NCBI GenBank assembly: GCA_937873695.1
Contig: CALMYL010000012.1
Coordinates: 1 to 64,000 of the forward strand
DNA from: an uncultured Ignavibacteria bacterium
Lineage (GTDB): Bacteria; Bacteroidota; Ignavibacteria; Tepidaquicellales; OLB5
Length of the DNA stretch: 64,000 bases
Reading direction: 5' to 3'
Part shown: one piece after another, positions 22,026-50,011 of the stretch
Numbering within the stretch: the first letter of the stretch is position 1
How the letters are laid out: each line of letters opens with the position of its first letter
The notes under the pieces: model-generated
Told to the model about the DNA's origin: nothing
Databases searched by the model: none
The model's input: only the letters and a program-made list of their open reading frames with translations
Translations under genes and position numbers: made by a program

Positions 22026-22236
22026 CCACGACCTTCAGGTCGTGGATTAAATGCTTATATAAAATGGGGCTTTAGCCCCAGACTATATAAACCCATCAAG
22101 GCTACTTCTTTCACTTCGTTCAATAAGTGAAGAAAACCCGGAGTCTATTTGATTCTCAACCTCCCGTCTAAAGTCCGGGGCTATATACATTAAGTATCAT
22201 TTTTACTTACGTAGTGTCAGGTTTGTAACCTGACAC
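22026..22236. repeat. Spacer with paired palindromes and a GTGTCAGGTT hairpin
   Basis: The 440-base spacer between the lipoprotein and dinB holds no gene. CCACGACCTT..AGGTCGTGG (22026-22045) and TGGGGCTTTAGCCCCA (22065-22080) form one two-hairpin unit. A separate perfect hairpin, GTGTCAGGTT-TGT-AACCTGACAC, lies at 22214-22236; the same GTGTCAGGT stem recurs after clpC at 37855. Confidence 0.7.
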
Positions 22237-23981: not shown

Positions 23982-24158
23982 CACGACTTCAGCCGTGAAT
24001 GAAAGAATCGATATTTAATCAAAACCGTTTTAACGGTTTCATGGAGTTTATGATTTTCGTTCTGCCTGTAATTATTGTGGCTCTCTTTGTGCGACCCCTC
24101 AGGGGTCGTGAATAAATTACAGATTCATTTCTATAAATATGTGACCCCTACGGGGTCA
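23982..24158. repeat. Two two-hairpin units downstream of lexA
   Basis: The first unit is an imperfect CACGACTTCAGCCGTG (23982-23997) plus AAACCGTTTTAACGGTTT (24022-24039). The second is CGACCCCTCAGGGGTCG (24092-24108) plus TGACCCCTACGGGGTCA (24142-24158), joined by a linker ending CTATAAATATG. The second unit has the same design as those flanking the transposase at 47-48 kb. Together with the neighbouring hairpins they fill the 640-base dinB-lexA spacer; no gene is visible there. Confidence 0.75.
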
Positions 24159-24304
24159 ATTATACGCTTCTCATAATCTTTCTTTTGCATTTTTTTCTAT
24201 TCACTTCATGTAGCTTTCAAACAATATGCTCTTCTGAAAGTTGAATATATGAAATCCATATTTACTAATTTGGCATTTGGATTTTGTCATTTGACATTTT
24301 GCTT

Positions 24305-25058: not shown

Positions 25059-25160
25059 ATTTTTAAGGAGAAGTCAAGCAAAAAATAATAGAATTTTTTG
25101 CAGGGAATTTACAGGGTAATTTTGAGCGGAAGAAGGAGATTCCAATATTATATTTAAGTT

Positions 25161-25264
25161 CGACCCCTAAAGGGGTCATGATTTAGCTGCGAATTTTTTT
25201 CTATAAATATGTGACCCCTCCGGGGTCAGGTAATTCACAATTAGCCCACGGCTTCAGCCGTGGG
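25161..25264. repeat. GACCCC two-hairpin unit and a CCCACGGC hairpin
   Basis: GACCCCTAAAGGGGTC (25162-25177) and TGACCCCTCCGGGGTCA (25212-25228), with a linker containing CTATAAATATG, repeat the design of 24092-24158. CCCACGGC-TTCA-GCCGTGGG (25245-25264) follows and belongs to the CTTNAG-centred family. Confidence 0.75.
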
Positions 25265-37898: not shown

Positions 37899-38077
37899 TG
37901 CATCAACTGTGTGAGCCTGCCACAGGCACGGTTGATGCACCTGACACCCAATCCGCCCAGGCGGATCAGTTTGGGTGACGTATAAATGAGATTGATTCCT
38001 TTCTTCCACTTTGTGTCAGCAAGGTACAGCGCTTCGCTCGCAATGGGTTTTGAGTTGCCACGACCTTTAGGTCGTGG
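37899..38077. repeat. Three palindromes between clpC and hemW
   Basis: GTGCATCAAC (37899-37908) pairs with GTTGATGCAC (37931-37940) around an inner GCCTGCCACAGGC stem. ATCCGCC-CA-GGCGGAT follows (37951-37966). CCACGACC-TTTA-GGTCGTGG (38058-38077) belongs to the CTTNAG-centred family and is followed by a GGGGCTT...AAGCCCC arm pair (38097-38133). No gene is present in the 366-base spacer. Confidence 0.65.
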
Positions 38078-45986: not shown

Positions 45987-46856
45987 TTAAGCTATTTTCA
46001 GGAATCTCCGTATAGATATCGCGCTGCCTAAAGTGCCCAATAGTGTACCAAATATTACCAGTAATATCAGGAACTTAGTATCAATTATGGAGAAATTGAA
46101 ATCATTGTTGGTATATGTTGAGTAAAAATAGCCAAGGAAGATCTGAAGTATAATTACTGCCAGAAGACTGCCTGCAAGTCCCTGAAAAAATCCTTCCATA
46201 ATAAACGGTGTGCGGATAGTCTCCTTTGTTGCTCCAATGAGTTTCATTATTTCAATAGTATCCTTTTTAGCCACAATCATAAGTCTTATGGTATTGCCTA
46301 TCAAAAATATTGAGGAAAAAGTAATTATTATTAACAGACTTAAATTCAGGAAAACAAGCGATTGTGAGTTCCTTTCGATTATTTCAAGGTTTTTCTGTGC
46401 ATATACAATATCGGCAATTTCAGGATTTTTTTGAAGCTCCAGCTTAATTTTTTCTATCCTGTCAATTGTTTTGTATTCATCATAAAGATTTATCTTTAAT
46501 GAAGGCGGCAGGGGATTATAATCAAATACTTCAAGTATATCCTGTCCGAATTCTTCCGCGAATATTTTTGCGGCTTCTTCCTTTGAAATATATGTGACAT
46601 TTTTAACTCCGCCTATTGTTTTGATTGAAGCTGTCAGCTTGCTGATATCACCGGGCTGAATGCTGTCATGCAAATAAGCGTCAATTTCAACTTTATCTCG
46701 TATTAACTTAAGCAATTTTACTGAATTGATGGAAATGGTCAAATATATGCCAAGTAAAAGCACTGCAAGTGCAATTACAATTGTTGAACTGATAACAGCC
46801 GATTTGGCTGTTTTCAGATACCGCATAAATTCAGTAAAATAGTATGATGGATTCAA
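45987..46856 (-). CDS. ftsX: Cell division protein FtsX
   Basis: FtsX is the membrane part of the FtsEX complex that activates cell-wall hydrolases during division. The 289-residue protein shows a first helix (AVISSTIVIALAVLLLGIYL), an extracytoplasmic domain of about 110 residues with VEIDAYLHD...VTYISKEEAAKIFAEEFG and NPLPPSLKI, and then three helices of the FtsX/MacB fold, with NTIRLMIVAKKDTIEIMKLIGATKE between helices two and three. ftsE is not adjacent in the window. The gene is flanked downstream by sdhC and upstream by the hairpin block around the transposase. Confidence 0.9.
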   Translation of the reverse strand: MNPSYYFTEFMRYLKTAKSAVISSTIVIALAVLLLGIYLTISINSVKLLKLIRDKVEIDAYLHDSIQPGDISKLTASIKTIGGVKNVTYISKEEAAKIFAEEFGQDILEVFDYNPLPPSLKINLYDEYKTIDRIEKIKLELQKNPEIADIVYAQKNLEIIERNSQSLVFLNLSLLIIITFSSIFLIGNTIRLMIVAKKDTIEIMKLIGATKETIRTPFIMEGFFQGLAGSLLAVIILQIFLGYFYSTYTNNDFNFSIIDTKFLILLVIFGTLLGTLGSAISIRRFLKIA

Positions 46857-46955
46857 ATCTATCTGTAATTATCAATGAGTATTGTGCAATAATAATGGTT
46901 ATAGTGTTAAAAAATTAGTCAATTTGAAGGTTTGTTGAATCTACAAGTTGTTAGT

Positions 46956-47317
46956 ATGTGCGATCTCTCAGGGGTCGGGTAGATCATTGAAAGTTAGTTA
47001 TAAATGTGTGACGCCTACGGCGTCAGGTTTTATTGAAAATCAAAAACCATATATGTGCGACCCCTACGGGGTCGGGTAGATTTTCTAAATTTGTGGTTAT
47101 AAACATGTGACTCCTACGGAGTCAAAAACTTAAAAAACCTGTGAATCATAGCATATAGTTACAATTTTCTACATCCTTCTGCGACAAGGTTCTTTAAGGC
47201 GAGTTCAAAGTTAACAATTAAGAAAATTATGAATATATGATTTTTTTGATGCCGGAGGCATCACACATTTATAGCTAATAATGTTAGAGGAAACCCGACC
47301 CCAGAGGGGTCGCACGT
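46956..47317. repeat. Left hairpin block (three two-hairpin units)
   Basis: Unit 1 pairs an imperfect hairpin (46961-46977) with TGACGCCTACGGCGTCA (47009-47025). Unit 2 has CGACCCCTACGGGGTCG (47058-47074) and TGACTCCTACGGAGTCA (47108-47124). Unit 3 is in reverse orientation: TGATGCCGGAGGCATCA (47247-47263) then CGACCCCAGAGGGGTCG (47296-47312). Each linker carries TATAAA-rATGTG next to the second hairpin. The block repeats, with changes, at 47808-48211 on the far side of the transposase. Confidence 0.85.
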
Positions 47318-47329
47318 TATCATAAAGAA

Positions 47330-47794
47330 TCAATCTTCAATCCATTCAAACAAATATTTCTCATCGTATTCAACTTCATATTTTCTCAACAGCTCAATAT
47401 ATTCTTCCTTAAAAGTCCTTTTCCTGTGATGTTCTTTCTGATTAATGATATAATTAATAACTTTGTCCAGTTGTGAGAGACTCACAGAAAATGCACCGAA
47501 GCCTGATTGCCAATTAAAACTATATTTTGTTAACCCTTCTTCTTTGATATAACTTGAGGATGATTTCTTAACTTCTCTAACTAAAACAGATATAGCGATG
47601 TCCGGTTTTAAACCTATCAAAAAATGAATATGATCAGGCATTCCGTTTATTCGCAGCATTTTTTGTCCCATTTTTTGTACTGTGCCTGTAATGTATTTGT
47701 AGAGTTTATCTTCCCATGATCGGTTTATGAGTGCATTTCTGCTTTTTACAGCAAAAACAATGTGAATATATAACTGTGTGAATGTATTTGGCAT
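47330..47794 (-). CDS. IS200/IS605-family Y1 transposase (RAYT-like)
   Basis: A 154-residue HUH endonuclease-type transposase. It has the strand YIHIVFAVKSRNALI, the HUH metal site GMPDHIHFLIGL (His-Ile-His) around residue 56, and a C-terminal YIINQKEHHRKRTF with the catalytic tyrosine and glutamine (YxxxQ). A tail EEYIELLRKYEVEYDEKYLFEW follows, as in Bacteroidetes family members. It nicks single-stranded DNA at hairpins. The length is complete and no frameshift is present, so it may be active. Both sides carry hairpin blocks. There is no accessory tnpB gene. Confidence 0.92.
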   Translation of the reverse strand: MPNTFTQLYIHIVFAVKSRNALINRSWEDKLYKYITGTVQKMGQKMLRINGMPDHIHFLIGLKPDIAISVLVREVKKSSSSYIKEEGLTKYSFNWQSGFGAFSVSLSQLDKVINYIINQKEHHRKRTFKEEYIELLRKYEVEYDEKYLFEWIED

Positions 47795-47807
47795 TTTTAA
47801 AGTTAAT

Positions 47808-48211
47808 ATGTGCGACCCCTACGGGGTCGGTCCGATTATTGAAAGTTTGTTATAAATGAGTGACGCCTCTGGCGTCATGTTTGTATTAAAATCAAAAAAC
47901 ATATATGCGCGACCCCTTCGGGGTCGGTTTGAACATAAAATATCAACTATAAATGTTCGACCACTACAGAGGTCGATTATATTATTAATTTATTGGCCAT
48001 AAACATATCTGTGCTACGAAGTCAAAAAATAAAAAAAACCTGTAAACCATAATGTTGCAAATGACTACATCCTTCCGTGACAAAGTTCTTTAAAGCGAGC
48101 TCAAGTTAACAATTAAGAATATTATGATATATGATTTTTTGATGCCGTAGGCATCAAACATTTATAGCTGCGAATGTCAGAAGAATCTACGACCCCGTAG
48201 GGGTCGCACGT
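47808..48211. repeat. Right hairpin block (three two-hairpin units)
   Basis: Unit 1 has CGACCCCTACGGGGTCG (47813-47829) and TGACGCCTCTGGCGTCA (47861-47877). Unit 2 has CGACCCCTTCGGGGTCG (47910-47926), a diverged hairpin with GACC/GGTC arms (47959-47975) and a decayed one near 48010. The reversed unit has TGATGCCGTAGGCATCA (48140-48156) and CGACCCCGTAGGGGTCG (48190-48206). Outside the hairpins, segments such as GACTACATCCTTC and TTAACAATTAAGAA are shared with the left block. Confidence 0.85.
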
Positions 48212-48232
48212 ACATAATCCAACAAAAACACA

Positions 48233-50011
48233 TCACTTCTTTTTCACAACTTCATCCCAGCCGAGGTAATTAACATGCTTTAAGATTATCCATCCTGCAA
48301 TTGTGCCAAGCGCAATATATATAGCGCCTGCACCGGGATTACCTAAAATTATTTTTCCTATTCCGAATAAATACATATATACCAATATTATCCCAAGCAT
48401 CCAGTCAATAAACAGTACTGCATAACCGCGGTCAGCCCTTATGTGCGGGTGTTTGGCCGCATATTTTTTCCAGCCAAAACCCCCCGGATGTACGCGCATA
48501 TAAAAGATCGAGAGCTTTTCATCGCTTACCGGTTTGGTCATGAATACTGTCGCCAGCCACGCCAATGTTGTTACCGGTACAATTATAAATAATGTTTCAG
48601 GGAATTTAATGCCAAAATCACCAAAATACAAAACTGCGTAAACAACAAATGGCGTTACTGTTGCCACAATTTCAGAAATTGCGTTAATGCGCCACCAGTA
48701 CCATCTTAAGATCAGAATTAATCCAAGCCCGGCGCCGCACTCAATTACAAATGCCCATACACCTGAAATTGTTGTCATGAACATTGTAACAACCACAGAA
48801 ATTATCATAAAAGCAATAGTCGCTATCCTTGATACTGCAACGTAAGTCTTTTCTGTTTTACCCGGAGATATGAATCGTTTGTAGAAATCATTAACGAAGT
48901 ATGAAGTGCCCCAGTTAAGGTGGGTTGCTATGGTTGACATGTATGCCGCAATGAATGCTGCAAGAAGCAATCCCTTTAATCCCATCGGCAGGAAGTCATT
49001 CATTGCTTTAACATAGCCAAGACCCTTATCTGCCATTGATAGCTCAGGATAGAGCACAATAGCTGAGAGTCCGACAAGTATCCATGGCCACGGCCTTATA
49101 CAATAGTGGGCTACTTGAAAGAATAACGTTGCAAGTAGTGAGTTTTTCTCGTCTTTGGCGGACATTATTCTTTGCGCTATATAACCACCGCCACCCGGTT
49201 CCGCGCCTGGATACCAGCTAGCCCACCATTGAATTCCGATAAATGCCAAAAATGTAGATACTGTCATCATTAAAATGCCGCCGGTGCCTGTAGAAGTTCC
49301 CGTTTCGCCGCCTATTTGCGGAGTAAATCTCAAAGCCCAATCCGGCAGTTTATCCTGCAAACCACTGATGCCGCCTATCTGGGGAGAGTTAACTACTATT
49401 ATAGCGAGTATTATACATCCCGCCATTGCAAGTATGAACTGGAATGCATCTGTGACCGCCACGCCCCACAGACCGGATATTGCGGAATATACCGCTGTTA
49501 TGAACATTCCAGCCGCTAAAAAATATATTACATTCCCATTATTTACAAATTCGGGGAACATACCAAGCAGTATCTTGCCCATCGCGAGATTTACCCAGCC
49601 CATAATTATACAATTCATAAATATGCCCAGATACAACGCTTTGAATCCGCGCAGGAATGAAGCTGATTTACCGGAGTATCTTAATTCAATGAATTCAACA
49701 TCAGTCAGTATGCCTGCCCTGCGCCAAAGTTTGGCGAAGAAAAACACAGTAAGCATTCCGCCAATCAGCATATTCCACCAGAGCCAGTTGCCGGCGATTC
49801 CGTTTTGTCCGACAAGCTCCGCAACCGCAAGCGGCGTATCAGCCGCAAAAGTTGTAGCAACCATACTCAGACCCGCAAGCCACCAAGGCAGCTTTCTGCC
49901 TGAGAGGAAAAAATCTTCTGTGTTGCCGCTTGCTTTTTTATAGTAGTATAAACCTATTGCAAGGCTGATGATGAAATATAACGCAATTATGATCCAGTCA
50001 ATTAAATGCAT
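48233..50011 (-). CDS. Sodium:solute symporter (SSS family), long form
   Basis: A 592-residue transporter with about 14 membrane helices. The opening IIALYFIISLAIGLYYYKKASGNTEDFFLSGRKLPWWLAGLSMVATT is the SSS signature, including the 'DFFLSGR.LPWW' segment and the sodium-site helix. TDVEFIELRYSGKSA and GVAVTDAFQFILAMAGCII follow. The cytoplasmic segment between late helices (SIFYMRVHPGGFGWKKYAAKHPH) is longer than in the symporter at 29471. This group in Bacteroidetes is annotated as Na+:solute or Na+:galactoside transporters; the solute here is unknown. The ATG at 50011 is on the opposite strand from the T9SS row. Confidence 0.9.
   Translation of the reverse strand: MHLIDWIIIALYFIISLAIGLYYYKKASGNTEDFFLSGRKLPWWLAGLSMVATTFAADTPLAVAELVGQNGIAGNWLWWNMLIGGMLTVFFFAKLWRRAGILTDVEFIELRYSGKSASFLRGFKALYLGIFMNCIIMGWVNLAMGKILLGMFPEFVNNGNVIYFLAAGMFITAVYSAISGLWGVAVTDAFQFILAMAGCIILAIIVVNSPQIGGISGLQDKLPDWALRFTPQIGGETGTSTGTGGILMMTVSTFLAFIGIQWWASWYPGAEPGGGGYIAQRIMSAKDEKNSLLATLFFQVAHYCIRPWPWILVGLSAIVLYPELSMADKGLGYVKAMNDFLPMGLKGLLLAAFIAAYMSTIATHLNWGTSYFVNDFYKRFISPGKTEKTYVAVSRIATIAFMIISVVVTMFMTTISGVWAFVIECGAGLGLILILRWYWWRINAISEIVATVTPFVVYAVLYFGDFGIKFPETLFIIVPVTTLAWLATVFMTKPVSDEKLSIFYMRVHPGGFGWKKYAAKHPHIRADRGYAVLFIDWMLGIILVYMYLFGIGKIILGNPGAGAIYIALGTIAGWIILKHVNYLGWDEVVKKK

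Follow-up and report, generated by a model that had tools for sequence, protein, structure and literature searches.

Results

The transposase locus

The window, a 64,000-nt stretch of contig CALMYL010000012.1 from an uncultured Ignavibacteria bacterium (genome of 3.78 Mb on 30 contigs), contains a transposase locus bounded by ftsX (45987-46856, minus strand) and a sodium:solute symporter gene (48233-50011, minus strand). The transposase is encoded by an intact ORF of 154 amino acids on the minus strand (47330-47794), which matched Pfam Y1_Tnp with a score of 96 bits. It is flanked by block 1 (46956-47318, plus strand) and block 2 (47807-48212, plus strand), which according to sequence comparison are homologous and identically oriented. 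The main segments of the two blocks are 81-86% identical. These data confirm the preliminary description of the locus as an intact Y1/HUH transposase between two related blocks.

The blocks are composed of units of ~66 nt, each consisting of a hairpin A, a linker of ~31 nt and a hairpin B in the same orientation as A. We built a covariance model, R1, solely from 23 units of this genome. R1 scored the six units at the locus at 61-81 bits; five of these are among the training units and that at 47904-47978 is not. Block 1 comprises two forward units, at 46955-47028 (A 46961-46977, imperfect; B 47009-47025; 71 bits) and 47052-47127 (A 47058-47074; B 47108-47124; 81 bits), and, after a spacer of ~115 nt, a reverse unit at the transposase stop (47244-47318, minus strand; A 47296-47312; B 47247-47263; 78 bits). 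Block 2 repeats this order. Its forward units are located at the transposase start (47807-47880; A 47813-47829; B 47861-47877; 74 bits) and at 47904-47978 (A 47910-47926; imperfect B at about 47957-47976; 61 bits), and its reverse unit at 48137-48212 (minus strand; A 48190-48206; B 48140-48156; 80 bits). The counterpart of the second B hairpin of block 1 has decayed in block 2 (about 48001-48024), and the B-like hairpin at 47957-47976 is an addition. Because the two blocks have the same orientation, the reversed unit is outermost in block 2 only. The proposed order of direct, direct and reversed at the outer end is therefore correct for block 2 but not for block 1, in which the reversed unit is the inner one and adjoins the stop codon of the transposase gene. 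An Rfam scan of the window identified a single tRNA and no family matching the unit.

Comparison with genomes of the same genus revealed that the arrangement of the locus is variable. In G003, G005 and G008, the syntenic locus has units on both sides of the gene, in varying numbers. The G002 locus has one block and no transposase, as compared with the block-gene-block arrangement of the present genome (G000). A remnant B hairpin is present in G011, and G004, G006 and G010 have no block. The duplicated flanking blocks, originally singled out together with the two-hairpin unit as the novelty, are thus lineage-specific, and we rejected them as the key feature of the system.

The transposase resembles IS200-type proteins

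The transposase contains the motifs DHIH, WQ and YIINQKEHH, followed by a C-terminal extension. The pattern Y---Q--HH was present in 80 of 83 homologues. By its sequence, the protein is of the TnpAY1 subclass 1.2 type, which is characterized by Y---Q--HH, DH[IV]H, WQ and the C-terminal extension. It passed the NCBIfam model for the IS200 transposase (72.7 bits, cut-off 55) and failed that for the REP-associated tyrosine transposase, or RAYT (29.9 bits, cut-off 80). The RAYT motif Y---NP was not matched, the transposase having YIINQKEHH. The nearest solved sequences and folds are those of IS608 and ISDra2. More specifically, the predicted structure (mean pLDDT 90) was closest to ISDra2 and IS608 TnpA, including their complexes with left- and right-end DNA. 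The REP-associated transposase structure 4er8 ranked 30th against the predicted fold. Together with the lack of a GTAG or GTGG foot, described below, these results led us to reject a RAYT identity. Of the earlier proposal of a REP/RAYT-type system, the REP-like character with dispersed cognate hairpins is retained, but the protein is no RAYT.

G003 and G005 each have an orthologue of 91% identity in the same position between ftsX and the symporter gene, a locus also shared by G008. At this syntenic locus, dN/dS among G000, G003 and G005 was 0.026-0.049. Judged from these substitution rates, the transposase gene is under strong purifying selection. The shared locus and the low dN/dS suggest that the gene is kept by selection and for the most part does not move.

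We also scanned multi-copy genomes for recent transposition, which yielded one informative case. In G316, two transposase cassettes with near hairpins are located in different places (L273 and L274) and are 94% identical over 677 bp. On one side the identity falls at a B hairpin, and on the other just past an A hairpin. This pair of cassettes could equally stem from transposition of a cassette or from gene conversion between older copies. The two cassettes are the best starting point for defining the ends of the element.

The stems of the two-hairpin unit covary

In this genome, the consensus of hairpin A is CGACCCC nnn GGGGTCG and that of hairpin B is TGACnCC nnn GGnGTCA. The linker ends in TTATAAA or CTATAAA plus yATGTG (also written CTATAAAyAT), and a GTG-like foot lies 5' of A and of B. 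The preliminary description held that the stems vary yet stay paired, and the 23 units support this claim: 98.1% of stem cells were paired, and 9 of 14 base pairs had changed on both sides. The covariation score was 0.475 versus 0.157 in shuffles, none of 500 of which reached the observed value. The signal was lost when the partners were slid by 1-3 columns. Hairpin A at 46961-46977 is imperfect, GATCTC facing GGGGTC with G-T pairs. When 35 units from the whole phylum were aligned, two-sided changes were present in 12 of 14 pairs, again with 0 of 500 shuffles reaching the observed value. The covariation, present in this genome and across the phylum, substantiates the proposed two-hairpin unit with pairing under selection.

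We further evaluated folding as single-stranded DNA using six sequences, representing both strands of two units and one strand of two more. Five of the six had z-scores of -4.0 to -5.2. The sixth, from the unit with the imperfect hairpin A (46955-47028), had a z-score of -2.8.

Units are dispersed in the genome

A search of the genome with R1 identified the further copies anticipated by the preliminary description: 30 strong copies on nine contigs, comprising the 23 training units and additional new ones. Two of the dispersed copies lie elsewhere in the window, at 24086-24161 (plus strand; A 24092-24108; B 24142-24158; 80 bits) and 25155-25231 (plus strand; A about 25161-25178; B 25212-25228; 59 bits). 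Nearly all units are intergenic and outside long ORFs; two seeming exceptions close to the end of a contig are due to an off-centre locus. An inverted neighbour pair accommodates 23 of the 30 units, each arm of which is itself a direct two-hairpin unit. The junctions among the 30 units are convergent in six cases, divergent in six and tandem in two, the tandem ones being confined to the blocks.

Three loci share an inverted pair of units, 163 bp long. Within the pair these loci are 82-83% identical, whereas in the unrelated 150-bp flanks the value drops to 20-49%, the break lying at the outer margins of the B hairpins. In sequence terms, this is what a dispersed element with defined ends at B would look like. 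For four clusters of units, we aligned the orthologous intergenic sequence with that of same-genus relatives and found no exact empty site with its target; intergenic regions within the genus are too diverged for an exact target site to be drawn. Orthologous clusters of units expand and contract in the manner of recombining repeats.

The two-hairpin architecture recurs across Bacteroidota and Ignavibacteria

A protein scan of named genomes yielded 80 transposase loci in Bacteroidota and Ignavibacteria, and inspection of their flanks revealed that the two-hairpin architecture recurs at gene after gene. We applied a mechanical finder, defined by the box, two hairpins and fixed spacing, to the loci and to five dinucleotide-shuffled copies. 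Two earlier finders, constrained more tightly by stem length or GC, had detected units at 33 loci and at 33 of 70 loci, the latter because AATCCC stems have 50% GC; the finder was then relaxed and the shuffle control retained. It yielded 163 units across the transposase loci and none in the five shuffled sets of all loci. Among the 70 eligible loci, in which both flanks were present, 46 had a unit within 400 bp of the transposase and 24 had none by this strict finder. Unit density fell with distance from the gene, from 3.36/kb in the first 150 bp to 0.77 between 150 and 400 bp, 0.24 between 400 and 1000 bp and 0.124 at 1-3 kb. Units are thus 27-fold denser beside the transposase than 1-3 kb away. 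The check for orientation bias suggested in the preliminary description revealed an excess of outward over inward units, 31:6 upstream and 28:14 downstream of the transposase.

The centres of A and B are 46-57 nt apart, with a peak at 50-51 nt. Across the phylum, the two hairpins differ systematically in two respects, the base at the outer end of the stem and the box ahead of B, which is CTATAAA or CTACAAA. The feet are of the ATGTG, ACAT or ACAGG types; neither GTAG nor GTGG occurs directly 5' of the hairpins, and the feet did not match known guide/cleavage pairs. At many Bacteroidota loci the order is B-A-B, with one A apparently common to two inverted B hairpins. If A is shared in this way, the piece that moves may at some loci be something other than the A-B pair. 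In Psychroflexus curvus (L116, 3455-4235), a unit recurs beside the transposase with a period of about 165 bp.

The units are associated with the transposase

We searched 296 genomes of the phylum that were at least 90% complete using a phylum-level model, R2. R2 matched 44 genomes, 133 had the transposase and 40 had both, corresponding to an odds ratio of 17 and a Fisher p of 7e-12, which is optimistic because related genomes are not independent. Units occurred in 40 of the 133 genomes with the transposase versus 4 of the 163 without it, a comparison of the kind proposed in the preliminary description, and are rare where the transposase is absent. None of the outcomes that the preliminary description named as refuting it (no further copies, equal numbers without the transposase, stems that fail to covary) was obtained. 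The 93 transposase-bearing genomes that R2 did not match are to be seen in light of the model, which represents the GACnCC type only; other genomes carry a GCTCC hairpin type with CTACAAACAGG ahead of B.

The feet of A and B agreed at 5.0 of 10 positions within a locus versus 3.9 across loci (0 of 2000 shuffles), part of this agreement reflecting two broad types. On the transposase tree, a quick one with many weak branches, the B-foot type changed 2 times versus 11 with shuffled labels, and the A type 5 times versus 15 expected.

The other subclass 1.2 genes of this genome, on C20 and C23 and including a broken one on C23, each have different hairpins beside them, and one of these hairpin families occupies 15 sites in the genome. 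This family, CCCACGG..CCGTGGG, flanks the transposase at 134 kb of C23 (L041). The window itself contains perfect hairpins at 25245-25264 and also at 22026-22045 and 38058-38077 (CCCACGG..CCGTGGG and CCACGACC..GGTCGTGG). The C20 transposase (L040, G000:C20:26000-30000, 1100-2600) has on both sides long tandem arrays of TCACCGCTTCGCGGTT with a period of about 50 nt, together with inverted copies of a related hairpin. The broken transposase (L042, G000:C23:51500-55500, 1589-2400) retains its own hairpin pairs, CGATGGGC..GCCCATCG.

Discussion

The transposase and its units share properties with several known systems. Subclass 1.2, as described in the survey of Quentin et al. 2018 (PMC6006769), has the same motifs Y---Q--HH, DHIH and WQ, a short core with a conserved C-terminal extension, low copy number and an occurrence in Bacteroidota. 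For this subclass, the survey gives 'no' under REPs and records no typical IS ends, whereas two-hairpin repeats flank most members examined here (46 of 70 loci). REPtrons and REPINs (PMC3116915, PMC3733652, PMC8266576) likewise consist of a single low-copy transposase gene with cognate repeats on both sides and hairpin repeats dispersed between genes, often as inverted pairs. By contrast, the present protein falls outside the RAYT model, its hairpins have no GTAG/GTGG foot and its unit consists of two unlike hairpins in direct order at fixed spacing. The IS200/IS605 elements IS608 and ISDra2 are closest in sequence and fold. In the IS200/IS605 family, a hairpin stands at each end together with a 5' guide by which the cleavage site is chosen (reviewed in PMC8266576), and A and B, two direct hairpins each with a foot in the guide position, resemble such ends. 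Unlike in these elements, the hairpins here are separated by about 50 nt and enclose no gene, copies are few and the gene is mostly stationary, flanked by outward units. Finally, the PATEs of haloarchaea resemble the units as short, gene-free elements with two near-terminal palindromes akin to IS605-type ends; those of Haloquadratum include some with direct repeats and 52-bp forms of the termini only (PMC3119063). PATEs are linked to archaeal IS605-type elements, and the passages of that report considered here describe no phylum-wide partnership with a dedicated, mostly stationary TnpA.

Overall, we favour a REP-like system on the IS200 side, whose transposase mostly stays where it is and disperses minimal two-hairpin elements, a reading we consider reasonably probable. 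The transposase has probably spread the units among which it lies. An ordinary REP/RAYT system, in which single-hairpin REPs stand in tandem by chance and move singly or as inverted REPINs, would render the A-B pair meaningless. Such a system would account for the REPIN-like inversion of neighbouring units, the similarity of A and B as REPs with related feet, and the B-A-B order at many Bacteroidota loci. It would not account for the fixed spacing of A and B or their systematic, phylum-wide differences, and the RAYT model and GTAG foot are lacking; this explanation seems unlikely. The host could instead be served by the units as terminators, determinants of RNA stability or nucleoid sites, the transposase being linked to them only through a neighbourhood that tolerates hairpins. 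Intergenic placement and strong folding are compatible with such roles. However, the density of units beside the transposase and their outward orientation, their absence from most transposase-free genomes and a foot type that tracks the transposase tree render this explanation very improbable.

The units might also be PATE-like remnants, that is, core-deleted and decayed IS200/IS605 elements multiplied by recombination and vertical descent and not by an active transposase. The Haloquadratum PATEs described above provide a precedent, and both the growth and shrinkage of orthologous clusters and the single block of G002, as compared with the block-gene-block locus of G000, are in keeping with such a history. 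Phylum-wide covariation and fixed spacing nevertheless argue for continuing use, as do strong selection on the transposase, cognate matching of the feet and co-occurrence, and we consider decayed remnants decidedly unlikely.

By analogy with IS200/IS605, a mechanism may be proposed for the favoured IS200-side system. Pairing, dispersal and cognate matching of the units, their link with the transposase and the conservation of its gene were observed, whereas joint binding of both hairpins, guidance by the feet, cutting and single-strand transposition belong to the proposal. In their direct order and their 5' feet, A and B are reminiscent of the two ends of such an element, left and right, joined without the gene. 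When the region is single-stranded, as in the lagging-strand template, a transposase dimer would bind A and B on one strand, with the feet serving as guides that choose the cleavage sites. Either a single unit or two units in inverted orientation would then be cut and excised or copied through single-strand transposition, and pasted elsewhere, mostly between genes. The transposase gene would mostly stay in place under selection, surrounded by outward-facing units as in a REPtron.

As far as our incomplete search of the open literature extends, the double-hairpin unit is a widespread and previously unassigned partner of subclass 1.2 transposases. A subclass described as partnerless would thereby gain a repeat partner, and the REPs a new kind of unit, in which two different hairpins with related feet stand in direct order. 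The fixed A-B geometry leads to concrete predictions on how one dimer might read two hairpins. The system also offers a natural setting in which to study how insertion sequences become domesticated genes that tend populations of non-coding repeats. More tentatively, these systems may represent a second, independent origin of REPs, in which subclass 1.2 IS200-type transposases stopped moving their own gene and instead maintain gene-less left-end/right-end elements in much of Bacteroidota. If this possibility is correct, they would represent an extant form intermediate between insertion sequences and REP/RAYT systems.
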